The notes below the pieces were generated by a model, which saw only the letters and a list, made by a program, of their open reading frames with translations, searched no databases and was not told the origin of the DNA. Positions 37,231 through 51,796 of a DNA stretch of 55,350 nt are shown one piece after another (the first letter of the stretch is position 1; every line of letters begins with the position of its first letter). The stretch covers positions 1 through 55,350 of the forward strand of contig JAUWHP010000045.1 in NCBI GenBank assembly GCA_030605765.1, given 5' to 3'. Made by a program: the position numbers and the translations under genes. Source of the DNA: Dehalococcoidia bacterium (lineage in GTDB: Bacteria; Chloroflexota; Dehalococcoidia; GIF9; AB-539-J10).

Positions 37231-38643
37231 TCAGGATTTCCCCTGAAGATATGCATCAATATCAACCGCAGCTCGTTTGCCAGCTCCCATTGCACTAATA
37301 ACTGTAGCTGCCCCAGTAGCCATGTCACCACCACACCAAACTCCTTCCTTACTTGTTCTGCCTGTAGCATCATCAGTAATTATAGTGCCCCATCTAGTAA
37401 GTTCAAGCCCTTTAGTTGTTGAAGGGATAATCGGATTGGGTCTGGTGCCCAAAGCAACAATTGCCGTGTCTATCTCCATAATGAATTCGGTGTTTGGCTT
37501 TGGTATCGGTCGGCGTCGACCACTTTCGTCGGGTTCGCCAAGCTCCATCTCATATAATTCTACTGCCTTGACCCTGCCTTGCTCATCCCCGATAAATCTC
37601 TTAGGATTAGTTAAAAGCTTGAAAACGATTCCCTCCTCTTCAGCATTGTCTCTTTCTTCAGCTCTGGCTGGCATCTCCACTCTAGAACGTCGATAGATAA
37701 TGTATACTTTTCCGGCTCCAAGTCTTAAGGCGCACCTGGAAGCATCCATAGCTACATTTCCTCCACCAAAAACCACCACTTCTTTCCCTACTTTTATCGG
37801 AGTATCGTATTCAGGGAAGGCATAAGCCTTCATCAAATTTGTTCGAGTAAGGAATTCATTAGCGGAATAAATACCACTCAGATTCTCTCCAGGAATATTC
37901 AGAAACATTGGTGCTCCAGCTCCCGGAGCTAAGAAAACAGCATCAAACCCGTTTCCCAAAAGATCATCTACTGTAGCTATTTTGCCTATCACTTGATCAA
38001 ATTTGATCTCCTCACTCAGAGACCTGACATAATTGGCTTCGGCCTGAACGATGTCTTTAGGCAGCCTAAATTCGGGTATACCATACATCAGCACCCCACC
38101 TGCGACGTGGAGAGCTTCAAATATAGTAACCCCATACCCCAGTTTAGCCAGTTCAGCAGCGCAAGTTAAACCCGCTGGTCCAGAGCCAACCACAGCTACT
38201 CTCTTACCATTAAATCTTGCACAGTTTTTTTGCTGTCCAATAATTTCGGGGTGATATCTTTCCCAATCAGCCACATACCGTTCTAAGCGGCCTATAGCAA
38301 TAGGAGCACCTTTTTTCGCTAAAGCGCAGGTCATCTCACATTGAGTTTCCTGGGGGCAAACTCGCCCACAAATGCCAGGGAGGCTGTTCTTATCTTTAAG
38401 CACCCTCACTGCTTCAGGCATATTACCTTCACTTATCGCTCTTATGAACCCAGGAATATCTATGTCGACGGGGCAGCCATCTATGCATGAAGATTTCTTG
38501 CACTGAATGCAGCGGCTTGCTTCTCTAAGAGCTTGCTCTTCCGTATATCCCAGGGCTACTTCGCTAAAATTCTTCTTTCTTACCAAAGGTTCTTGCTTTG
38601 GCATTGACACGCGATTTAAATCTAATTTCTTCTTCTCACTCAT
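37231..38643 (-). CDS. nfnB: NfnB/GltD-type NADPH flavoprotein subunit of NADH-dependent ferredoxin:NADP oxidoreductase
   Basis: This 470-residue protein has an N-terminal two-[4Fe-4S] domain (CIQCKKSSCIDGCPVDIDIPGF, CGRVCPQETQCEMTC). It continues with the FAD Rossmann segment VAVVGSGPAGLTCAAELAKLGY and the NADPH-binding VVVFGGGNVAMDASRCALRLGA with YRRSRVEMPA, whose arginines suit the 2'-phosphate. GGDMATGAATVISAMGAGKRAA closes the fold. It overlaps the 281-residue NfnA-like gene by eight bases, the arrangement of the electron-bifurcating transhydrogenase NfnAB. Alone it would be annotated as glutamate synthase small subunit, but no large subunit is present, so NfnB is preferred. Confidence 0.9.
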   Translation of the reverse strand: MSEKKKLDLNRVSMPKQEPLVRKKNFSEVALGYTEEQALREASRCIQCKKSSCIDGCPVDIDIPGFIRAISEGNMPEAVRVLKDKNSLPGICGRVCPQETQCEMTCALAKKGAPIAIGRLERYVADWERYHPEIIGQQKNCARFNGKRVAVVGSGPAGLTCAAELAKLGYGVTIFEALHVAGGVLMYGIPEFRLPKDIVQAEANYVRSLSEEIKFDQVIGKIATVDDLLGNGFDAVFLAPGAGAPMFLNIPGENLSGIYSANEFLTRTNLMKAYAFPEYDTPIKVGKEVVVFGGGNVAMDASRCALRLGAGKVYIIYRRSRVEMPARAEERDNAEEEGIVFKLLTNPKRFIGDEQGRVKAVELYEMELGEPDESGRRRPIPKPNTEFIMEIDTAIVALGTRPNPIIPSTTKGLELTRWGTIITDDATGRTSKEGVWCGGDMATGAATVISAMGAGKRAAVDIDAYLQGKS

Positions 38644-39481
38644 TTACTATCGCCCCTGCCATCTTCTTTTTCCAGAGCTCTAGCGATTCCTTTTCTTCAT
38701 CTAAATAAGTACGCTGACGCTTCATCAGCAAATCCCAATCAACTTCATGCCCATCAAAATCTGGCCCATCCACACAGGCAAACTTAGTTTCACCACCTAT
38801 CGATACACGACAGCAGCCACACATTCCGGTGCCATCAACCATTATGGGGTTAAGACTGACGATGGTTTTCACACCAAAAGGCTTGGTAGTCAAGGAGCAA
38901 AATTTCATCATTACTGTAGGGCCAATAGCAATTACCCTTCCAATTCTTGTTTCTTGCAAAAGCTCCTTCAATGGCTCAGTCACAAGTCCTTTACGCTTAT
39001 ACGAGCCATCATCGGTAGTCACAATAAGCTCGTCGCTTACGCTGCCTAACCGCTCTTCCCAGAAAACGAGATCTTTCGTACGGAATCCCATAATTGATAC
39101 AACTCTGTTACCAGCTTTCCTCATCGCCCGAGCAATGGGCACTATGGTGGCAATCGCAAATCCCCCAGCAACGCAGACGACAGTGCCGAATTGTTCAATC
39201 TCTGTAGGCCGGCCTAGTGGACCAACAAAATCAACTATACTATCACCTGTATTGAGCACAGCCAATTTCCTGGTAGATGTGCCTACTTCCATGAAAACAA
39301 TGGTCACACTCCCCTCTTTTCCATCCCAATCAGCGATGGTCAACGGAATACGTTCTCCCTTTTCATCAATTCTAACAATGATGAACTGGCCCGCTTGGGC
39401 TTTCCTGGCTACCCCAGGTGCTTCAATTTTGAGCAGGTGAATTTCTGAAGTGAGATCCTCTCTGTCCAAGATCCTGTACAT
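38636..39481 (-). CDS. nfnA: NfnA-type FAD/[2Fe-2S]/NAD subunit
   Basis: This 281-residue ferredoxin-NADP reductase-like protein of the sulfide dehydrogenase/dihydroorotate dehydrogenase electron-transfer type has an N-terminal FAD barrel (RIPLTIADWDGKEG), a central nucleotide-binding domain (VVCVAGGFAIATIVPIARAM, VVSIMGFRTKDLVFWEE) and a C-terminal cysteine cluster MCGCCRVSIGGETKFACVDGPDFDGHEVD for the [2Fe-2S] centre. With NfnB it would couple NADH and reduced ferredoxin to NADP reduction. It starts divergently from mutM. Confidence 0.9.
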   Translation of the reverse strand: MYRILDREDLTSEIHLLKIEAPGVARKAQAGQFIIVRIDEKGERIPLTIADWDGKEGSVTIVFMEVGTSTRKLAVLNTGDSIVDFVGPLGRPTEIEQFGTVVCVAGGFAIATIVPIARAMRKAGNRVVSIMGFRTKDLVFWEERLGSVSDELIVTTDDGSYKRKGLVTEPLKELLQETRIGRVIAIGPTVMMKFCSLTTKPFGVKTIVSLNPIMVDGTGMCGCCRVSIGGETKFACVDGPDFDGHEVDWDLLMKRQRTYLDEEKESLELWKKKMAGAIVNE

Positions 39482-41027: not shown

Positions 41028-43049
41028 CTACACTGGCGCCTCAACTATTACTGACGTTCCCTTACCCGGTTCAGAGTTTATTTCCAGGTTGCCACCCAAT
41101 AATCGTACTCTCTCTTGCATGCCAACCAAACCAAGCTTGCCGTCCCGGGATAGATCGTCTATCTTTCCAAGGGCCTGAAATCCGATGCCATTATCTCTTA
41201 CGCTGGCAGTGATTTTGTTTTCCGCGAATTCAATCAACACTTCAGCGTTTGAGGCATGAGAATGTCTTCCAACATTTCTCAATGCTTCCTGGATAATACG
41301 AAAGAGAAGCAATTCAACTTCTGGTACGAACCTTCGCTCAGAGCCATGTACCTGTAAGCTGATCCTTATCCCATACGTAGTCTTGAATTCTCGGCTGACC
41401 CAGTGCAATGCAGCAAGCAAACCCACATCGTCGAGAATAGCGGGGCGTAGGTCACGACTAAGGTATCGCACTCCTTGCACTATATCTTTAACCTGTTCGT
41501 GAATAGCCCATAGCTCTCTAGCCTCCTCCAAAGGCAGATTCTCCTGACTGTCCGAGAAATTTTCCAGCCTATGGAGCAAAGCAATAAGGTTTTGAGCAGT
41601 GCTATCATGGAGTTCACGAGAAATACGCAGGCGCTCATCCTCCTGAGCTTTAGTGATCTGCCGGACATAAGAGCGCAGGCTTTCCTGCATTTTTGCCTCT
41701 TCGGTTATATCTCGAGCAATGTTTTGAAAGGCTTTGGATTGACCATCACCGTAAATTAGATTGGTGGTTAACCTCAGTGTAGCCTGAGTACCATCCTTTC
41801 GTATGAGGTGTTGTCTGTAAGGTTGTTGAACGGGTTCGCCATGAAGCAAGGAACGCCGCACCTCATTTGCTGTTTCCAAGTCCTCCGGCGAAAGAAAATC
41901 TTTCGTCTTCATATTGGACAATTTCTCTTTACTAAACCCCGTGAGCATTTCGCTTGCTCTGTTAGCGGATATGATATTACCCTCCAGGTCATCGATCCAG
42001 ATGGCATCGTGAGCATTCTCGAATAGCTCGCGGTAGTGCTTTTCGGACCGACGCAGTTGATCCGTTATTATTAACTGGTCCTGGTGGAGGCGAGCATTAT
42101 CAATGGCGGTGCCAACTTCATTACCCATAACTGTAAGCAGGGCTATGTCCTTAGCAGTAAATTGTCTATATTGATGCATACCTATGCATAGTGTGCCCAC
42201 AACTCGAGCTCTGGATCTCATAGGGACTATAAGTTGCGAATGAAGCCCTTCTTTCCTCACCACTTCCCTGCTCAATCTGGGATCCAGGGACGCATCTTCT
42301 ACTACTAAGGGCTCCCCTGTTTCCGCAACACGTCCATTAAAGCCTTCCCCCAGTTTCATCCTCTCCACGCCACCGGCAAATTCTAAAGATACCCCTTCAC
42401 TGGATATGAGCATCAAGGCATTTGCCTCTTCCTCAAGACTAAATACGAGGACGATGTCCACTCCCATTACGCTCATGATCATAACGGTAGCAGAACGTAG
42501 GAGCGGCTCCAACTCTGGAGATTGTGTGAGTAAGTTAGATAATCTGCTCAGGGCAGCTAGGTCTTTCTCATGTTTCATTGTGCTTCGAATTTGAGTGCGG
42601 AGCTTGCCTTGAGATATCGCCACTATTTCTCTAACCTGTTCTCGTTGCTCTATGGCCTGCATCCGCTCGCTTCGCGCCTTGAACCAGAGATTTGTCGTGA
42701 CGCCTGCCAAGATTACAATGGTCGTCTCAAACAAAGCATCAACGGGATTCACGGAAATGAAAACAGCTCGAGGTAACATAAGAAGCAAAACAGCGGAGCT
42801 TGCAACTAACCCAGTTGTGGCGCCGAAGGTATAGCCAGCATAGACTATAAGAGCAAGATAAAACACGCGATCTGCTGTGTGGCGGCTCAAACCAAAGAGC
42901 GAATTGTACGATAACAGAGTGGGTATACCCATCTGCTCAAAATAGTGATTAGCCGTACAAAGCATAAGAAGAGTCAATATAATCCAGAAATGGTAGCTTC
43001 GTACGTCTATCTTGGCTTTTGGGAGCATTTTCGATGGTATATCACTCAA
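41028..43049 (-). CDS. Membrane sensor histidine kinase with GAF and PAS domains (NarL-type partner)
   Basis: This is a 673-residue kinase. The N-terminal part (about 18-120) has four hydrophobic helices. A GAF domain spans about 175-320 (LLRSATVMIMSVMGVDIVLVFS ... LGEGFNGRVAETGEPLVVEDA). A PAS domain spans about 335-455 (YRELFENAHDAIWIDDLEGNIISANRASEMLTGFS). The HisKA_3 dimerisation helix has RISRELHDSTAQNLIALLHRLENF with the phospho-accepting His. The ATPase has an N-box, QEALRNVGRHS, DNGIGF, and GLVGMQERVRLLGG. The regulator gene is one base upstream, so the two are cotranscribed and probably a cognate pair. The signal is unknown. Confidence 0.92.
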   Translation of the reverse strand: MSDIPSKMLPKAKIDVRSYHFWIILTLLMLCTANHYFEQMGIPTLLSYNSLFGLSRHTADRVFYLALIVYAGYTFGATTGLVASSAVLLLMLPRAVFISVNPVDALFETTIVILAGVTTNLWFKARSERMQAIEQREQVREIVAISQGKLRTQIRSTMKHEKDLAALSRLSNLLTQSPELEPLLRSATVMIMSVMGVDIVLVFSLEEEANALMLISSEGVSLEFAGGVERMKLGEGFNGRVAETGEPLVVEDASLDPRLSREVVRKEGLHSQLIVPMRSRARVVGTLCIGMHQYRQFTAKDIALLTVMGNEVGTAIDNARLHQDQLIITDQLRRSEKHYRELFENAHDAIWIDDLEGNIISANRASEMLTGFSKEKLSNMKTKDFLSPEDLETANEVRRSLLHGEPVQQPYRQHLIRKDGTQATLRLTTNLIYGDGQSKAFQNIARDITEEAKMQESLRSYVRQITKAQEDERLRISRELHDSTAQNLIALLHRLENFSDSQENLPLEEARELWAIHEQVKDIVQGVRYLSRDLRPAILDDVGLLAALHWVSREFKTTYGIRISLQVHGSERRFVPEVELLLFRIIQEALRNVGRHSHASNAEVLIEFAENKITASVRDNGIGFQALGKIDDLSRDGKLGLVGMQERVRLLGGNLEINSEPGKGTSVIVEAPV

Positions 43050-43050
43050 G

Positions 43051-43740
43051 TCATTTACCAGAGGAAATATCTTCTAACGTGAACCAGTCATGTCTCAGCC
43101 CTTCCATAACTGCCTCAATACGGGACCCAACACCCAATTTATTGAAGATGCTTGTCAAATGGCTTTCGATAGTATGTACGCTAAGGAAGAGCTCGCTGGC
43201 AATCTCCTTGTTGCTCATCCCCGCAGCAGCCATTTTCAATACTTCAAGCTCTCGATCAGTCAATCCTTCCAGTTCTTTCTCAGGTTCCTCTTTCACACTC
43301 TTCTTCCTAAAACGCTCTACCAGCTTCCGGGCTACTGCAGGATGAAGCACTGTCTCCCCCCTATACACAGTGCGAATGGCGTCGACGAGCTCGTGCCCGC
43401 TCATATCCTTCAATAGATAACCAGCAGCGCCTGCCTCTAAGATAGGGAAAATGTACTCCTCATAATCATAAGCAGTAAGTATCAACATGATTGTGCGGGG
43501 ATCAAGTTGTTTTATCTGCTTCGCAGCTTCGATTCCATTAAGCTTGGGCATAGAAATATCTAAGATGACAATATCAGGTTTGAGTTCTCCTGTTAACCGT
43601 ACAGCTTCTTCACCATCACTAGCTTCACCCACCACCTTAATATCCCGCTCACGATCTAGAAACTGGCGGATGCCCTGGCGAACTACCTTATGATCCTCAG
43701 CAAGCAAAACAGTAATCTTCCCCATGCGCATACTCTCCAT
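43051..43740 (-). CDS. NarL/LuxR-family response regulator
   Basis: This 229-residue regulator has a receiver domain (about 8-125) with acidic pocket AEDHK, phosphorylation site Asp61 in IVILDISMPKLNG, the switch Thr/Ser region LILTAYD and Lys in YLLKD. A LuxR-type helix-turn-helix follows (about 155-215): LTDRELEVLKMAAAGMSNKEIASELFLSVHTIESHLTSIFNKLGV. ATG at codon 6 is an alternative start. It is divergent from the Lrp-type gene and redox operon beginning at 43997, which are natural candidate targets. Confidence 0.93.
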   Translation of the reverse strand: MESMRMGKITVLLAEDHKVVRQGIRQFLDRERDIKVVGEASDGEEAVRLTGELKPDIVILDISMPKLNGIEAAKQIKQLDPRTIMLILTAYDYEEYIFPILEAGAAGYLLKDMSGHELVDAIRTVYRGETVLHPAVARKLVERFRKKSVKEEPEKELEGLTDRELEVLKMAAAGMSNKEIASELFLSVHTIESHLTSIFNKLGVGSRIEAVMEGLRHDWFTLEDISSGK

Positions 43741-43996
43741 CGTGAGTTATATTCCTAGTGTCCCTCTCCTATCTCGTATTCTAACTTATTTGACTATTTG
43801 CTTCAACGCGCAATAAGAAGAACCAGTGATGTTTACTTTGCATCAATGAAAACCCTGTATGTGGAGTAGTCAAACCACCTGGCATCAAGGTTCCTTATTT
43901 CAGGGTTTCCTGGGAGTCAAGAAAGGTTGAATGCAGGGATGCTGGCCGGTATGAGAAATGGTTGAATTAAAGTACAAAAAATAAGGAGGGAAAGAA

Positions 43997-44296
43997 ATGG
44001 GTTTAAGAGCATATCTTCTAGTTAATGTAGCTGATGACGTAGAGCAGCAGGAGTTTGTTGAGATGTTAAGAAAACTGGAGGAGGCACCAGGGGTGGATTT
44101 TGTCGACCCGGTTATTGGATCCCGCGACATAGTAATCATGGTAGATGCACCGGTAACAGTGGAGGCCATAGCCAACAGAATACAGGCTACGGAGGGTATT
44201 AAGAATATGGAGATATTGAGGATTGTTTCCATGTTTGAACGCCACCGGGCTTCGAAAAAAGAACTTCTTAAATCTCTGGCTCACAGTGGAGTGTAA
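43997..44296 (+). CDS. Stand-alone Lrp/AsnC ligand-binding (RAM) domain protein
   Basis: This 99-residue protein matches the effector-binding alpha/beta domain of Lrp/AsnC regulators (AYLLVNVADDVEQQEFVEMLRKLEEAPGVDFVDPVIGSRDIVIMVDAPV ... EGIKNMEILRIVSMF) and has no DNA-binding helix-turn-helix. Such single-domain proteins form dimers or decamers and sense amino acids or small acids. AAGGAGGG precedes ATG. It is 55 bases upstream of the redox operon on the same strand and could sense a metabolite for it. The 256-base gap before it (43741-43996) holds no clear promoter that I can defend. Confidence 0.82.
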   Translation: MGLRAYLLVNVADDVEQQEFVEMLRKLEEAPGVDFVDPVIGSRDIVIMVDAPVTVEAIANRIQATEGIKNMEILRIVSMFERHRASKKELLKSLAHSGV

Positions 44297-44351
44297 TTCT
44301 TAGGTCTGATCATTCATCCCACTGTGCTCAATTCCCAGCAAAAGGAGCAAT

Positions 44352-44879
44352 ATGAATGACGAAATTAACTTGATTACCGAAGCTAGAGAAGAGCCGAATT
44401 TGGTGGTGATTGATGCCATATCCCACAAACACAATAGTCAGCCTGGCGCTACGATTCCTATTCTCCAGGAAATTCAAGACTCCTACGGATATATCCCCCC
44501 CTTCACTATCCAAAAGATAGCCGAGAACATTAACATCCCCGCCAGCGAGCTATTTGGCATAGTCACCTTCTATGCTCAATTTAGACTCCATCCACTCGGC
44601 AAGAATGTAATCAAGGTTTGCCATGGGACTGCCTGCCATCTGAGCGGGACAGAAAAGATATCCCAGGCATTATCTCAGGAAGTAGGTGCCAAAGAAGGTG
44701 AGACAAGCACTGATGGGCTGTTTACCGTGGAACGGGTAGCCTGCCTTGGCTGTTGCAGTCTAGCTCCCTGCGTGATGGTTAATGGCGAAGTTCATGGGCG
44801 GCTTGCTCCTGAGGATATTCGTAAGATAGTGAATCAACTTCGGGAAACAGAGAGGAAAACAGAAGCTGCCACTACCTGA
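44352..44879 (+). CDS. nuoE: NuoE/HndA-type [2Fe-2S] subunit
   Basis: This is a 175-residue thioredoxin-like ferredoxin subunit. The helical N-terminus (GATIPILQEIQDSYGYIPPFTIQKIAENINIPASELFGIVTFYAQFRL) is the family's docking region. Four cysteines bind the cluster: CHGTAC (Cx4C) and CLGCC (Cx3C). In Hnd/Hyd/Stn-type complexes it passes electrons from the NuoF flavin site. It is first in the operon nuoE, decayed hndB, nuoF, fusion protein. The N-terminal 28 residues are variable. Confidence 0.93.
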   Translation: MNDEINLITEAREEPNLVVIDAISHKHNSQPGATIPILQEIQDSYGYIPPFTIQKIAENINIPASELFGIVTFYAQFRLHPLGKNVIKVCHGTACHLSGTEKISQALSQEVGAKEGETSTDGLFTVERVACLGCCSLAPCVMVNGEVHGRLAPEDIRKIVNQLRETERKTEAATT

Positions 44880-44903
44880 AACGAGCCTTGTGATGAAGGC
44901 TCA

Positions 44904-45188
44904 ATGGCAAATTTGGCAACGATTACTGCTCTCAAAGAAACATAGCAACAGGGCTGGGCTATGAGAATTTGTCCTTATCTCCTATGGTATTACTGCTTGT
45001 GGGCCCCGCCTATCTATATAGCTTCAAGACCAGGAGAGGGCGGCCATAGATTTGAGAAACAAGGCGGCTGTGCTAGCATCTGCTACAATAATATGGTGGC
45101 TGCGGTATCTTTGCCTGGGTATAAGCATCTATTATGGGGTAAGGCTACACCTGATAAACTCGGCCATGTAATCGGAGAATATGCTTAG
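44904..45188 (+). pseudogene. Decayed hndB-like [2Fe-2S] thioredoxin-fold gene
   Basis: Between nuoE and nuoF lies a relic of a gene like the N-terminal domain of the following NuoF. ATG at 44904 opens MANLATITALKET and meets TAG after 13 codons. In a different frame, 44971-45018 reads VLISYGITACGPRLSI, matching GLASCGIAAGG-R of NuoF, then meets TAG. In the first frame again, 45050-45188 reads QGGCASICYNN ... GKATPDKLGHVIGEYA, matching TGCMGMCYNE ... GKVTPDRLDRIIEEH. Two stops plus frame changes show that it is broken, and the first cluster cysteine has become Tyr. Position and content fit hndB of hndABCD-type operons. Confidence 0.75.
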
Positions 45189-45196
45189 GAGCGATC

Positions 45197-46996
45197 ATGC
45201 TTCCGCAAAGGGATAAAGAAAACAGAAAATGGGTTATCAGGGTCGGGCTTGCCTCCTGCGGCATCGCTGCTGGTGGACTGCGCATATATGATGCCTTAAA
45301 AACCAAGCTTCAGGAGAAGGATTTAGCCATAGAGGTGAAGCAAACCGGCTGTATGGGCATGTGTTACAACGAGGTATTGGTTGAGGTCTCTTCGCCGGAG
45401 CATGGACGTGTGTTTTACGGCAAAGTCACACCTGATAGGCTAGATCGCATAATCGAAGAACACATTATCGGCGGGCAACCCGTTACCGAGTGGATTGTTC
45501 TTGCTGATTGGATGAAGACCGAGGGTTCTGATTTCCTGGCTAAGCAAGTAAGAATCGTTCTTCGCAACTGTGGCACCATCGACCCCGAATCCATCGATGA
45601 TTATCTAGCAGCGGGCGGCTATGAAGCATTAAGAAAGGTATTATTCAACATGTCGCCACAGGAGGTGATTGATGAAGTCACCAGATCTGGCTTGAGGGGA
45701 AGGGGCGGGGCAGGCTTTCCCACCGGCGTCAAGTGGAGCTTCGCCAAAAAGGCCTCAGGCAATCCTAAATACCTAATATGTAATGCTGACGAAGGAGACC
45801 CTGGCGCTTTCATGGACAGAAGCGTCCTGGAAAGCGACCCTCACAGCGTTATTGAAGGGATATTAATAGCCGCTTACGCCATTGGCGCCTCGGAGGCTTA
45901 CATTTATGTCCGAGCAGAGTATCCACTGGCAGTCCGCCGATTGAAGATAGCTCTCGCCCAGGCTAAAGAAAAAGGATTTATAGGTGAGGACATCCTGGGC
46001 TGCAAATTCAGCCTCGATACAAAGATCAGGCTGGGGGCCGGAGCTTTTGTCTGCGGTGAGGAGACAGCTCTTATCATGTCCATAGAGGGGCACAGGGGGA
46101 TGCCCAGACCCCGCCCTCCTTTCCCAGCGCAATCCGGCTTATGGGGCAAGCCTACCAATATCAATAATGTTGAAACTTTGGCCAACGTGCCTTGGATTAT
46201 ACTCAATGGAGCAGATGCCTATAGTGTCTATGGGACTGAGAAAAGCAAGGGCACCAAACTCTTCGCTCTGGCAGGCAAGGTCGCTCATGGCGGGCTAGTG
46301 GAGGTTCCTATGGGCATAACCCTCAAGGAGATTGTGTTCGACATCGGCGGTGGAACTTCTTCAGGTCAAAAATTCAAGGCAATTCAGATTGGGGGGCCAT
46401 CCGGTGGATGCATTCCAGCAAGACTTGCTGACACCCCTGTAGATTATGAATCTGTGACCAATACAGGCGCCATCATGGGCTCAGGGGGTATGCTGGTAAT
46501 AGACGAGAGCACCTGTATGGTGGATGTCGCCAAGTTCTTCATGAATTTCATCCAAGACGAGTCCTGTGGCAAGTGCACTTTCTGCCGCATAGGAACTCTA
46601 CGCATGTTAGAGATTCTACAACGAATTACTGACGGTCAGGGAAAAGAGGGAGATATAGAGCTATTGAAGGAACTAGCAGAGAAAGTAAAGGAGGCTTCTC
46701 TATGCGGGCTAGGGCAAACCGCACCCAACCCCGTGCTTACTACGATCAGGTACTTCCGCGATGAATATGAGGCTCATATCTATGAAAAGAGATGCCCCGC
46801 AAAGAAATGCAGGAGCCTGATAAGGTATGAAATCATACCCGAAAAATGCCCTGGCTGTGGGCTTTGTGCTAAATACTGCCCGGTAGAAGCTATATCTGGA
46901 GAGAGAAAAAAACCTTATGTTATCGATTCTGAGAAGTGTATTCGCTGCGGATTATGCGTAAGCGCATGCCGGCTCGATGCTATAGTCGTCGAGTGA
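45197..46996 (+). CDS. nuoF: NuoF/HndC-type NADH-binding flavoprotein subunit
   Basis: This is a 599-residue subunit. Residues about 8-95 form a thioredoxin-like domain (RVGLASCGIAAGGLRIYDAL, TGCMGMCYNE) with three visible cysteines, one fewer than a canonical [2Fe-2S] site. The FMN/NAD core follows: GLRGRGGAGFPTGVKW, NADEGDPGAFMDR, GAGAFVCGEETALIMSIEGHRGMPRPRPPFPAQSGL. The [4Fe-4S] site is ESCGKCTFCRIGT plus SLCGLGQTAPNP. The C-terminus has two more [4Fe-4S] clusters, CPGCGLCAKYCP and CIRCGLCVSACR. In HydABC/NfnAB-like systems this flavin exchanges electrons with NADH and ferredoxin. AGGAG overlaps the relic's stop codon. Confidence 0.94.
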   Translation: MLPQRDKENRKWVIRVGLASCGIAAGGLRIYDALKTKLQEKDLAIEVKQTGCMGMCYNEVLVEVSSPEHGRVFYGKVTPDRLDRIIEEHIIGGQPVTEWIVLADWMKTEGSDFLAKQVRIVLRNCGTIDPESIDDYLAAGGYEALRKVLFNMSPQEVIDEVTRSGLRGRGGAGFPTGVKWSFAKKASGNPKYLICNADEGDPGAFMDRSVLESDPHSVIEGILIAAYAIGASEAYIYVRAEYPLAVRRLKIALAQAKEKGFIGEDILGCKFSLDTKIRLGAGAFVCGEETALIMSIEGHRGMPRPRPPFPAQSGLWGKPTNINNVETLANVPWIILNGADAYSVYGTEKSKGTKLFALAGKVAHGGLVEVPMGITLKEIVFDIGGGTSSGQKFKAIQIGGPSGGCIPARLADTPVDYESVTNTGAIMGSGGMLVIDESTCMVDVAKFFMNFIQDESCGKCTFCRIGTLRMLEILQRITDGQGKEGDIELLKELAEKVKEASLCGLGQTAPNPVLTTIRYFRDEYEAHIYEKRCPAKKCRSLIRYEIIPEKCPGCGLCAKYCPVEAISGERKKPYVIDSEKCIRCGLCVSACRLDAIVVE

Positions 46997-47008
46997 GAGG
47001 ATAAGGAG

Positions 47009-50000
47009 ATGCCCACAGTATCACTAATAATCGACGGAAAAAGAGTTGAGGTAGATAAGGGAAGCACTATTCTCGAAGCCGCCTCCCAGACCGGCATTGA
47101 GATTCCTACGCTGTGCCATGACCCTCGCCTAAAACCATATGCTGCCTGCCGTACCTGCTTAGTGGAGGTAGAGGGCGCAAAAGGCCCTTTGGCAGCATGC
47201 TCCACACCGGTGCAAGAAGGCATGGTGGCAAGGACAAAGACCGACAACATTACTGAGCTTCGTCGGACAGCACTGGATTTGCTTCTCTCAGATCACTATG
47301 GTGATTGTGTAGCTCCCTGTAAACTGGCCTGCCCTGCTGGAATAGACATTCAGGGTTACATTGGATTCATTGCCAATGGGCAATATGCAGAGGCACTGAA
47401 ACTGATTAAAGAGACTAATCCCTTACCCCTGGTTGTTGGTCGAGTGTGCCCACGGCTTTGCGAGGCAAAATGCCGCAGAAGCCTTGTAGATGAGCCAGTG
47501 GCCATAAATGCACTTAAGAGGTTTATAGCTGATTTTGACCTGAATAACAGGGATCCCTGTACACCTGAGCCAGGGCCTGCCACAGGGCACAGCGTGGCAA
47601 TTGTGGGTGGAGGCCCAGCCGGTTTATCAGCAGCCTATTACCTCGCTCTAGAGGGACACGAAGTAACCATTTTCGAGGCAAACCCTCAGCTTGGTGGGAT
47701 GCTCAGATATGGAATCCCAGAATATCGCCTTCCCAAAGCAATCCTGGACAAGGAGATATCTGGCATCACCCGTTTTTGTCGTCAAATCCGCTGCAATGTA
47801 TCTCTGGGGCGAGATTTCACCATCGAAAGTCTGAAAGGCAAGGGCTATGAAGCTATCTTCCTTGGCATTGGCGCCTGGGTCAACCAGAAGATGAGGATTG
47901 CAGGGGAGGATTTGCCCGGCGTCCTCTCTGGGATAGGATTTCTGCAAGACGCAGCTACGCACAAAGAAGTAAACCTGGGACAGAAGATAGCGGTTATTGG
48001 TGGCGGCAACACAGCAGTTGATGCAGCGCGAACTGCTCTGAGGCTAGGTGCTGCGGAGGTAACTATTGTCTACAGGCGCTCGAGAAAGGAGATGCCTGCA
48101 AACGAAGAGGAAGTAGAACAAGCCGAGCAGGAAGGAGTAAAAATTCACTTCCTAGCGGCGCCGCTAAAATTAACTGCCCAGAATGGCACTGTCGCCTTCA
48201 TGGAATGCATCAAGATGGCATTGGGAGAACCAGATAGCTCAGGCAGACGAAAGCCGAAGCCAATAGAAAACTCGGAATTCACCATGCACGTGGATACAGT
48301 AATTGCTGCCATCGGCCAAACCATTGATACCTCCGGATTCCTTAAAGATGGTGGGCTGGAGCTTAACCATAAGGGATATGTGATAACCGATGAGGAAACG
48401 ATGCGAACTTCCCTTGAGGGGGTTTTCGCCGCAGGTGACTGTGCCACAGGTCCAGCCACTGTGATCCAGGCGGTAGCTGCGGGACGAAGAGCGGCCCTTT
48501 CCATAAACCAGTATGTCAGCGGGCAACCAGTGACATGTATCGAAAAGCCATTCAACTGCACTAAGGGAGAATTGGGTGAGATCGATATCACCGACTATAA
48601 AGATGTAGTGCGCACTCCTAGAACAGGAATGCCCGTCCTGAGCCCCAAAGCGCGAAAGAGTAATTTCGACGAAATCGAGCTCGGGCTCACTAAGGAAATG
48701 GCAAAAAAGGAAGCTGAGCGCTGCTTGGCCTGCGGTTGCCAAGATGTATTTGAATGTGAGTTACGGAAGCTGGCCACTGAATATGGTGTGAGAGGAGATA
48801 GATATACTGGGCACAAACACCACTTCTCCATAAGTAAGGATGACCACCCTTATATTATTAGAGAACCAAACAAATGTATTTCGTGTGGCGGCTGCGTAAG
48901 AATATGTAGCGAGGTTATGGGCATCAGCGCCTTAGGCTTTGTCGGACGCGGTTTCGATACCGCTATAAAGCCTTCCCTAGATCTACCTCTCTGGTTAACA
49001 GACTGTGTATCGTGTGGCCAGTGCATTTCCGTTTGCCCTACAGGCGCCCTGACAGCCAGAGTTTGCCTGCCTAAACAGGGACCATGGAAAACCAAAACTG
49101 TGTCTAGCGTCTGCCCCCACTGTGGTATTGGCTGCAATATAGAATTGAATGTAATTGGTGAAAAATTAGTGAATGTCACCTCCCCTGCTGGGAGTATAGT
49201 AAATAACGGTAATCTCTGTAGAAAGGGAGCTTTTGGCCATTGCGACAGCCACGATTCAAAGCGACTCACAACACCTCTCATCAAAGAAAACGGCCATTTG
49301 GCCCAAGTAACGTGGGATAAGGCAATATCCATGGCAAGTGAGGGGCTGAGGCAGATTAAGAACCAGAGTGGCGGAGAAAAGCTGGCGGTCCTTGTATCCC
49401 CTCAATTGACGAATGAAGAAATTTACCTGGCCCAAAAGTTTGCTCGGGTTGTTTTGGGAACCAATAACATAAGTAGCCTAACTTCCTCCGTGATGAAGGA
49501 AGGTTTAGCCCAAAGCTTTGGCATAAATGCCTCCACTTGCTCTTATAGCGACATCCTAGCCAGTGATCTTACGCTCGTTTTCGGCTGTGACATCACCGAG
49601 GATTATCCTATAATTGGCTTGAAAATCAGGGAAGCAGTTGGAAAAGGCGGCAAACTAATCACTATCAATCCCAGAGCAACGAGGATAGACCCCTTGGCGC
49701 AAATAACTTTAGCAGTCAACCCGAGAACAACTGTGCCACTGCTTAAAACGATGTTGAACTACATCATATCTTACGACTTGGTAGATCATGATTGTGTTCA
49801 TTCACGCATCAGTAGCTTTGAGGATTTTGCCCAGCAGATAAGGCCATACCACCTCGAAGACATTGTCGATGAACTATGGATCAGGCCTTCAAAGGTCATT
49901 GAGATAGTGCACCTTTATCTTCGAGCCAAGAAACCCGTGATCATAATCGACGCCGAGAACATTACATCCTCAGAGCTTGCCCTGATAAATGATTTAGCCT

Positions 50001-50668
50001 TGGTTACAGGCAATGTAGGAACAGATGCCTCTGGGATTATAGCCCTACATTCTCCAGGCAATGCACAGGGCCTTATTGATATGGGGGGAAGCGCCCAATA
50101 TCTCCCTGGACAACAGGCAGTGGCAGATGCAGCTACGAGGCAAAAATTTGAGACAGCCTACCAAAGGGCCCTACCCATTGAGAAGGGAAGAGATGCTATT
50201 GGTATTATTAAAGGGCTGCAAAAAGGAGATATCAAGGGTATTCTCGTTATCGGCGTTGATGCTGTAGCTAAGACAGGGAAAACTGTCTTTGATAACCCAA
50301 GTTTTTCCGTGCTTATAGATACTGTATTTCCCCAAAACCCTCCTTACGCTGATGTGGTTTTCCCTGGATCCATGTTCACCGAAACTGAGGGCACCTTTAC
50401 AAATTGTGAGCGGCGTATTCAACGCATTCACCGTGCCATCCCATCTCCATCCGGTAAGGATAACTGGCAAATCATCTCAGCCCTGGCAACTGCTCTAGGT
50501 CATCCAATGAGCTATGCTTCAGTTTCAAGCATCTATGCTGAAATAGCCAGTCTGGCCCCTATTTATGCAACCACGTATGGCAAACAATGGCCCTTCTTGA
50601 ACAACGGCAGATTCAGATTCAAAGATGGCCTAGCCCGGCTTCATCTCGCTGAGCCCAGGAATTTCTAG
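47009..50668 (+). CDS. Fusion: [2Fe-2S] + NfnB/GltD NADP flavoprotein + ferredoxin + Mo-domain lacking its ligand
   Basis: This is one frame of 1219 residues. Residues 1-80 are a NuoG/HydA-type [2Fe-2S] domain (Cys36, 47, 50, 64). Residues 100-160 are the NfnB-type Fe-S cluster domain (CVAPCKLACPAGID, CPRLCEAKC). Residues 195-505 are a GltD/NfnB flavoprotein with FAD loop VAIVGGGPAGLSAAYYLA and NADP loop IAVIGGGNTAVDAA with YRRSRKEMPA. Residues 570-585 add CLACGC; residues 620-680 hold two [4Fe-4S] ferredoxin motifs. From about 700 on there is a formate-dehydrogenase-like domain with its Fe-S motif CPHCGIGC...LCRKG. The segment normally holding the Mo/W-bound Cys or Sec (HCARLCHSPTV in active enzymes) reads SSLTSSVMKEG at 822-832, with no Cys, Sec or His. 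It is the NADP(H) end of the complex. Confidence 0.92.
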   Translation: MPTVSLIIDGKRVEVDKGSTILEAASQTGIEIPTLCHDPRLKPYAACRTCLVEVEGAKGPLAACSTPVQEGMVARTKTDNITELRRTALDLLLSDHYGDCVAPCKLACPAGIDIQGYIGFIANGQYAEALKLIKETNPLPLVVGRVCPRLCEAKCRRSLVDEPVAINALKRFIADFDLNNRDPCTPEPGPATGHSVAIVGGGPAGLSAAYYLALEGHEVTIFEANPQLGGMLRYGIPEYRLPKAILDKEISGITRFCRQIRCNVSLGRDFTIESLKGKGYEAIFLGIGAWVNQKMRIAGEDLPGVLSGIGFLQDAATHKEVNLGQKIAVIGGGNTAVDAARTALRLGAAEVTIVYRRSRKEMPANEEEVEQAEQEGVKIHFLAAPLKLTAQNGTVAFMECIKMALGEPDSSGRRKPKPIENSEFTMHVDTVIAAIGQTIDTSGFLKDGGLELNHKGYVITDEETMRTSLEGVFAAGDCATGPATVIQAVAAGRRAALSINQYVSGQPVTCIEKPFNCTKGELGEIDITDYKDVVRTPRTGMPVLSPKARKSNFDEIELGLTKEMAKKEAERCLACGCQDVFECELRKLATEYGVRGDRYTGHKHHFSISKDDHPYIIREPNKCISCGGCVRICSEVMGISALGFVGRGFDTAIKPSLDLPLWLTDCVSCGQCISVCPTGALTARVCLPKQGPWKTKTVSSVCPHCGIGCNIELNVIGEKLVNVTSPAGSIVNNGNLCRKGAFGHCDSHDSKRLTTPLIKENGHLAQVTWDKAISMASEGLRQIKNQSGGEKLAVLVSPQLTNEEIYLAQKFARVVLGTNNISSLTSSVMKEGLAQSFGINASTCSYSDILASDLTLVFGCDITEDYPIIGLKIREAVGKGGKLITINPRATRIDPLAQITLAVNPRTTVPLLKTMLNYIISYDLVDHDCVHSRISSFEDFAQQIRPYHLEDIVDELWIRPSKVIEIVHLYLRAKKPVIIIDAENITSSELALINDLALVTGNVGTDASGIIALHSPGNAQGLIDMGGSAQYLPGQQAVADAATRQKFETAYQRALPIEKGRDAIGIIKGLQKGDIKGILVIGVDAVAKTGKTVFDNPSFSVLIDTVFPQNPPYADVVFPGSMFTETEGTFTNCERRIQRIHRAIPSPSGKDNWQIISALATALGHPMSYASVSSIYAEIASLAPIYATTYGKQWPFLNNGRFRFKDGLARLHLAEPRNF

Positions 50669-50845
50669 ACAGTGTCAAAATCATTCATAAAACATATTAG
50701 GAACTGGTTTCATATCCGCGAGGCTTAATACTCCTGCCTGGCAGTGCTCCGGTTCACCGCTGTGCTCTGCTCCCTGAGTTTCCAGATTCTCTTTTTGCTG
50801 CCCCGAGTCCTAAGTGAAGAAAAGAAGAAGGGGGCCAACGATTCT

Positions 50846-51796
50846 TCACATTTCACGACACCCAGCAATAGTTATTTTTTCCCCCACCTTGACATCTCTA
50901 TAGGCATTCGGGAAGGCGTTACGAAATGCTGCAATACTGGCATCACAGCTATCGTGAGCCGAAAGCCCCACAACTCCGGGGCTCAGCTTCTTCAAATAAT
51001 CGATGGATTTCTGCACATCCCCCATTGTAATTGGTTTCCATGGAAGCCTGCATGTACCTGCATATTTCTGTATCTTAATTCCCATCATCTTCTCCCGTGA
51101 ATCCGTGACCGGGTAATGAAGACCTCCAATAACACCGTAAATTGGCTCTTCAAACAAGGCTTCAGTGCGCCTTATAATTTTGGATAAAGTCTGATGGCCA
51201 CATCCCATAATAACGACAATACCCTTTCCCTCGACATTAACCGCTAACGCCTGTTCCAGTATCCAGCCCAGGAAGAAATCCTGATTCGCTATCGCCCCAA
51301 TAGTCGCAACTCCCGTTGCAATAACAGTTGGGGTTTCCGTACAAAGAGGGTTAAGCCCCGGATACGTCATCGGTATGGGAGTATAAGCTGCTTTCCCTGC
51401 CAAATTAACCTGATGGCTTGCCAAAGAAAATGACTTGCGTTTCTCCCACTTCGTTCCCCCTACATGGTCACAATGATTGTGCGAAATTACAATAGCATCG
51501 AAATCATCCATACCAATCCCTAACAGTTTCATATTATGTAATAAAGGCGATGGGTCACTTTGTTCAACGTTATAGCCTACATCAAACAAAATCGAGTTGC
51601 TATCAGTTTGGATAAGGTAAGAAACACCAGCTTCACCCTTCAACTCTTCACTACTTGTATACCAGTCAATGAGAGGTAATATGGCGAGAGATTTCGTCGT
51701 TCCTAGACCTGTTATCCTCCGAACGCTGGACCGCTGCCAATATTCCTCTGCCTTTCGCTTGCCCCTACTAAAACGAATCAGCAGACACATCTTCAT
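50846..51796 (-). CDS. Metallo-beta-lactamase-fold hydrolase, DHPPP-synthase-like
   Basis: This 316-residue MBL-fold protein has the metal motif SHNHCDHVGG (HxHxDH with Cys inserted), then GCGHQT and GGLHYPV as later ligands. It resembles the group of 7,8-dihydropterin-6-methyl-4-(beta-D-ribofuranosyl)aminobenzene-5'-phosphate synthases involved in methanopterin-like chemistry in archaea, although bacterial members are mostly uncharacterised. The N-terminal 40 residues (many Arg/Lys) precede the conserved part that begins near ILPLIDWYTSSEELKGEAGVSYLI. It is convergent with the redox operon. The 177 bases between the two (50669-50845) show nothing that I can name. Confidence 0.8.
   Translation of the reverse strand: MKMCLLIRFSRGKRKAEEYWQRSSVRRITGLGTTKSLAILPLIDWYTSSEELKGEAGVSYLIQTDSNSILFDVGYNVEQSDPSPLLHNMKLLGIGMDDFDAIVISHNHCDHVGGTKWEKRKSFSLASHQVNLAGKAAYTPIPMTYPGLNPLCTETPTVIATGVATIGAIANQDFFLGWILEQALAVNVEGKGIVVIMGCGHQTLSKIIRRTEALFEEPIYGVIGGLHYPVTDSREKMMGIKIQKYAGTCRLPWKPITMGDVQKSIDYLKKLSPGVVGLSAHDSCDASIAAFRNAFPNAYRDVKVGEKITIAGCREM

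Follow-up and report, generated by a model that had tools for sequence, protein, structure and literature searches.

The window analysed here, a stretch of 55,350 nucleotides from the 951-kb draft genome (87.6% complete) of a Dehalococcoidia bacterium, carries three genes on the same strand in the order stnA-stnB-stnC, and in public collections the named relatives nearest to it are MAGs from Dehalococcoidia. The first gene (44352..44879, +) encodes a NuoE/HydC-like subunit of 175 aa with a thioredoxin fold and a [2Fe-2S] site (PF01257, 7e-50); the second (45197..46996, +), preceded by an AGGAG-type ribosome-binding site, encodes a NuoF/HydB-like FMN/NADH subunit of 599 aa and of the bifurcating type, assigned with Pfam and phmmer; and the third (47009..50668, +), with AAGGAG on its 5' side, encodes a GltD/NfnB and NuoG/FDH-like fusion of 1219 aa, assigned with Pfam, phmmer and alignment. 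This last gene is one open frame of 1219 codons, running without interruption from the ATG at 47009 to the stop at 50668. The frame and the Pfam domain search confirm the original prediction of a single 1219-residue chain joining [2Fe-2S], NfnB/GltD, ferredoxin and FDH-like modules, and its NuoE and NuoF subunits are indeed found upstream.

Comparison with all PDB sequences by phmmer placed each of the three products closest to Stn/NfnABC complexes. StnA matched 9n5u_C (5.2e-54) and 8oh5_A, itself a StnA (9.1e-48), while StnB matched 9bov_B (5.2e-268, alignment full-length) and 8oh5_B (1.1e-261) over aa 14-599. For StnC, 9bov_A came first (4.8e-275), followed by 8oh5_C (4.2e-263) and then Thermococcus sibiricus NfnA (9n5u), so that the similarity is far above chance. 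Furthermore, StnB has an N-terminal thioredoxin-like part, followed by the Pfam domains Complex1_51K (PF01512), NADH_4Fe-4S (PF10589) and two C-terminal Fer4 motifs, which together supply every feature of a bifurcating-type StnB, namely the thioredoxin-like N-terminus, the FMN/NADH core and the two C-terminal 4Fe-4S motifs.

Several further features surround the operon. Between stnA and stnB, a frame of 75 aa (44961-45188, +) is 43% like StnB aa 48-89 and looks like the decayed remainder of a partially duplicated stnB start, and just 5' of stnA a frame of 99 aa (43997-44296, +) resembles, by eye, an Lrp/AsnC ligand-binding domain, with no Pfam match at 1e-8. Positions 41028-43740 hold a divergent pair of a histidine kinase and a LuxR regulator, and an Rfam scan of 43700-51000 returned no match. 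In addition, profile and PDB matches identify a canonical nfnB-nfnA pair (37231-39481, −) about 5 kb from the operon, with nfnB (470 aa) above the TIGR01316 cut-off and nfnA (281 aa) best matching the small subunit of Pyrococcus furiosus NfnI in the PDB (5.1e-106).

Within StnC, Pfam gives the order Fer2_4 (aa 3-78), Fer4_20 (100-179), Pyr_redox_2 (195-492), Fer4_Nqo3 (614-682), Molybdop_Fe4S4 (695-744) and Molybdopterin (752-1161). The N-terminal [2Fe-2S] domain (aa 3-78; 47015..47242, +; PF13510) holds Cys36, 47, 50 and 64, which form cluster C4 in StnC of Sporomusa ovata and are kept in every Stn row. Next comes the GltD/NfnB-like FAD and NADP(H) module (aa 100-505; 47306..48523, +; PF14691 and PF07992), which, by alignment to 8oh5_C, 9bov_A and 9n5u_A, sits within the NuoG-type His-Cys3 region, and after it two ferredoxin-like [4Fe-4S] motifs (aa 614-682; 48848..49054, +; PF22117), whose Cys623, 626, 629, 633, 666, 669, 672 and 676 do not vary among the rows compared. 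When mapped on S. ovata StnC, the cluster-ligand cysteines are all kept, as are His96, Lys170 and Arg240 (= R239). Lys170 (47516..47518, +, placed by alignment) has been described in Stn as an unusual and strictly conserved ligand of the FAD-proximal [4Fe-4S] cluster C7, with Glu as its counterpart in NfnB (PMC10482914); it is shared by the window and all long StnC-like rows covering the column, and the short forms have His. A separate observation concerns Cys257 (47777-47779), common to the Chloroflexota and Actinomycetota Stn with a dead FDH site and to three relatives with a live one (L099-L101, below), whereas the live fusions not accompanied by StnAB and the Stn rows taken from the PDB have Gly there; a lineage marker is one possible reading of this residue.

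The FDH-like C-terminal domain (Molybdop_Fe4S4 and Molybdopterin; 49091..50491, +) was delimited by Pfam, alignment and an AlphaFold model. Its Fe4S4 cysteines are kept (Cys702, 705, 709 and 737), yet at aa 819-831 (49463..49501, +) alignment and codon-level reading show NNISSLTSSVMKE in place of the active-site motif NNxDHCARL(C/U)H. Against NNTDTCARVCHSP of Rhodobacter capsulatus FDH (6TG9), the window reads NNISS---LTSSV, so that the catalytic Cys/Sec and the following His are absent, with a 3-residue deletion there, and the active-site Arg is replaced by His. Moreover, Pfam finds no pterin-dinucleotide-binding C-terminal domain (PF01568) after the Molybdopterin domain, and the TIGR01591 (Fdh-alpha) score of 364 bits falls short of the cut-off of 666. 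By fold, the AlphaFold model resembles FDHs and StnC (TM-scores of about 0.5), values taken as evidence for the fold alone because the model, built from 9 sequences with a mean pLDDT of 70, is only of moderate quality, and aa 819-831 are among its lowest-confidence stretches. Since PF01568 and the catalytic Cys/Sec are both missing, the predicted Mo domain survives as an FDH-like fold only. A stretch around aa 1027-1063 is kept in the window and absent from the alignment of S. ovata StnC to true FDHs; judged by its active-site residues, the domain is catalytically dead, though, with this stretch kept, less eroded than that of S. ovata.

Such a domain is not new in itself. StnC has been described as a GltD-NuoG fusion that is annotated as formate dehydrogenase and has no formate activity (Kremp et al., 2020; PMC7483475), and in the 1172-aa S. 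ovata StnC residues 683-1172 form a catalytically inactive FdhF-like domain, whose clusters C1 and C2 lie off the electron path and which is needed for assembly or stability, its role and that of the two clusters being left open in the structure paper (Kumar et al., 2023; PMC10482914). Because the S. ovata papers describe one, an FDH-like domain is a standard part of a long StnC. The C-terminal Mo-type domain had been put forward as an undescribed feature, an idea that these published descriptions (PMC7483475, PMC10482914) rule out, and the suggested new branch of bifurcating transhydrogenases is likewise set aside, because homologues of the same architecture have already been characterised as Stn itself, an enzyme also classed as Nfn-Bfu (Schut et al., 2022; PMC9304861).

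Altogether, the three genes very probably encode an Stn-type (Nfn-Bfu) electron-bifurcating transhydrogenase of a Dehalococcoidia bacterium, a reading supported by the operon and its domain order, the cofactor motifs, the cluster ligands, Lys170, and the fact that the FDH catalytic residues and the pterin-binding domain have been lost, all at the level of sequence. It agrees with the earlier proposal of an Stn-related complex connecting NAD(H), NADP(H) and ferredoxin. The expected reaction would be NADH + 2 reduced ferredoxin + 2 NADP+ <-> NAD+ + 2 oxidised ferredoxin + 2 NADPH. By analogy with the structure and assays of S. ovata Stn, the FAD in the GltD module of StnC would be where NADPH is oxidised or formed, the StnC cluster chain would carry electrons to the FMN of StnB, and bifurcation, gated by StnA, would send them to NAD+ at the FMN and to ferredoxin at the C-terminal StnB clusters; the FDH-like domain, its two clusters off the path, would serve assembly or stability and perform no formate chemistry. 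As the host genome encodes CdhC (acetyl-CoA synthase), Stn would in such a cell connect NADPH with the pools of NADH and ferredoxin. Two observations count against this assignment: the position of S. ovata Cys114, which modulates cluster C7 there and is not strictly conserved (PMC10482914), is Ile in the window and Ile or Val in other homologues, and, with canonical nfnAB so close, another Nfn activity would in part duplicate it.

A search for relatives covered 393 genomes sampled from the class Dehalococcoidia, 23 of which match at E <= 1e-150, and loci from public collections were added for grouping. A first group has a dead FDH site and comprises the window with L048, L050, L107 and L108 in Chloroflexota and L023, L027 and L036 in Actinomycetota, with stnB, and usually also stnA, upstream where the contig reaches. 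A second group, of uncultured bacteria, has a live site and stnA-stnB directly upstream of a StnC-like protein of 1361-1390 aa: L099 (3450-9998, −), with Cys encoded by TGC, and L100 (2553-9028, +) and L101 (5646-12134, −), with an in-frame TGA as catalytic codon. In L099 and L101, PF01568 is present and TIGR01591 scores 872 and 876 bits; the FDH domain of this trio looks complete and live, and the complexes would be four-substrate formate/NADPH/NADH/ferredoxin enzymes. The notion of an Stn with a working Mo domain thus holds, as far as sequence goes, for these three relatives and fails for the window. A third group, again with a live site, has no StnA or StnB match in the stretches read (L045-L047, L028, L102-L104, L106); L045 reaches 854 bits with TIGR01591. 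The single-chain NfnB-FDH fusions L045 (5652-9740, +) and L046 (5385-9473, −), with no stnAB nearby, are, like L102-L104 and L106, probable one-polypeptide NADP-dependent formate dehydrogenases. The fourth group, from other Chloroflexota, consists of forms of about 800 aa that stop before the FDH part and have His at 170.

The catalytic codon of 15 live-group loci, read at codon level, is TGA in 6 and TGC in 9. SelB scored above its cut-off in five of the eight genomes searched (G098, G120, G180, G057, G336) and not in the other three (G000, G032, G206), and RNA folding just 3' of the UGA codons was no better than that of shuffles. Given the catalytic-codon position and SelB, the in-frame TGA codons probably encode selenocysteine. 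Additional arrangements were observed alongside these groups: a second GltD-like gene just upstream of the fusion in L102-L104 and L106; short StnC-like proteins of at least some 800 aa beside NuoF-like genes in other Chloroflexota families (L109-L115), with His at 170 in those checked and some hosts having large genomes; and, elsewhere in the window's own genome (L037, G000:C22, 290-5422), a 1053-aa fusion of NuoF and GltD and, after it, a separate NuoG/FDH-like protein of 657 aa, an arrangement that recurs with a live FDH motif in L038, L044 and L052.

Three alternatives to a plain Stn were weighed. A separate catalytic FDH, or another enzyme, might dock on the dead domain so that formate electrons still enter Stn, as the existence of fused live versions and of a Mo-FDH gene adjoining the Stn-like genes of Dehalobacteriia could suggest, the significance of the latter being called unclear by its authors (PMC10327494); however, no FDH gene adjoins the operon and the 87.6%-complete own genome has no match above the Fdh-alpha cut-off, which makes docking improbable. 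Still harder to credit is a working FDH, in which the C-terminal domain binds a Mo/W-pterin and the complex is a formate/NADPH/NADH/ferredoxin enzyme: although the fold and Fe4S4 site are kept, the likeness to true FDHs reaches further than that of S. ovata StnC (aa 1027-1063), and the domain is complete in the close relatives L099-L101, the Cys/Sec-His pair is gone together with three residues, the active-site Arg has become His and PF01568 is lacking, grounds on which an active FDH in the window was rejected, and S. ovata StnC has no formate activity (PMC7483475). Equally remote is an oxidoreductase of this architecture that does not bifurcate, either NADPH:NAD+ or Nso-like (sulfur/oxygen), for although Nso of Thermococcus litoralis is made up of the same subunits and has been reported as a sulfur/oxygen oxidoreductase, the window StnB keeps its bifurcating-type thioredoxin-like part and Fer4 pair, and the T. 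sibiricus and S. ovata homologues bifurcate.

With an Stn-type transhydrogenase as the preferred reading, the question becomes how its dead domain arose. Among the dead Chloroflexota group, the identity of the FDH part lies below that of the N-terminal part in 21 of 21 pairs, as would be expected if constraint on the FDH part had relaxed in Stn, while the FDH part diverges faster in 0/3 pairs within the live trio and in 4 of 28 pairs of the live group without StnAB, being the more similar part in 3/3 and 24/28 pairs, respectively. L099 combines two affinities: its N-terminal part is 61% identical to the window and 56% to L100, and stands among the dead Dehalococcoidia Stn in the N-terminal tree, while its FDH part is 66-70% identical to live FDHs and 37% to the window. 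In the FDH and StnB trees the live trio L099-L101 stands apart from Stn, the FDH-region tree being a quick one and the Firmicutes and Synergistetes StnC being represented by partial PDB-derived rows only. On the N-terminal tree, AU tests rejected neither a single live clade (p 0.11) nor a single dead clade (p 0.128), so that, with the trees of the three parts in conflict, a single loss of the FDH site in Stn and a module swap are both compatible with the data. We tentatively suggest, as an idea that falls somewhat short of probable, that Stn descends from a bifurcating formate dehydrogenase with four substrates that survives in Dehalococcoidia (L099, L100, L101), or swapped NADP modules with it, clusters C1/C2 of Stn being the former formate path and the window protein a less eroded dead form.

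The live relatives matter more than the window, as the live StnAB-(NfnB-FDH) loci offer a concrete ancestor-like enzyme, make the origin of the Stn 'remnant' clusters testable and, if correctly read, represent one complex coupling formate, NADPH, NADH and ferredoxin; full-text literature searches, with subscription literature outside their coverage, found no description of them. The window complex itself, whose assignment to Stn has good support, is a known kind of enzyme in a new lineage, and it adds Dehalococcoidia to the range that Kremp et al. (2020; PMC7483475) gave as Firmicutes, Proteobacteria, Synergistetes and archaea. Moreover, Stn and NfnAB lie a few kilobases apart in the window, whereas the two have been reported as almost mutually exclusive in acetogens (Kremp et al., PMC7483475); NfnA and Stn also share a contig in one relative (G039), and NfnA has no match in the three genomes with live Stn-FDH.

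Among characterised systems, S. ovata StnABC (8OH5/8OH9) is alike in subunits, domain order, cluster ligands, Lys170 and the inactive C-terminal FdhF-like domain, and the window differs from it in its Dehalococcoidia host, the Ile for C114, the less eroded FDH-like domain and the accompanying nfnAB. NfnABC of Caldicellulosiruptor saccharolyticus (9BOV/9BP5), the top PDB match for StnB and StnC, branches apart from the window in StnC trees. T. sibiricus Nfn-Bfu (9N5U; Schut et al., 2022), for which bifurcation has been shown, shares the GltD-inserted NuoG-like subunit and the BfuBC core but has 963 aa, a shortened C-terminal domain and fewer clusters. NfnAB of P. furiosus and Clostridium kluyveri has a comparable GltD-like FAD/NADPH module, yet its own FAD is the site of bifurcation, the cluster has a Glu ligand and the partner is NfnA, whereas the window StnC has Lys, not Glu, at 170 and StnAB as partners in an operon without an NfnA gene. 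Type 1 Fdh-Bfu and R. capsulatus FDH (6TG9) follow the same NuoE/NuoF/FDH plan and FDH fold but possess a live Cys/Sec site and no GltD module. Finally, Fdh3 of Thermococcus onnurineus (PMC8965080), although its subunits are separate and it lacks StnAB, combines a W-FDH with an NfnB-like NADP subunit and is the split counterpart of the fusions L045 and L046.
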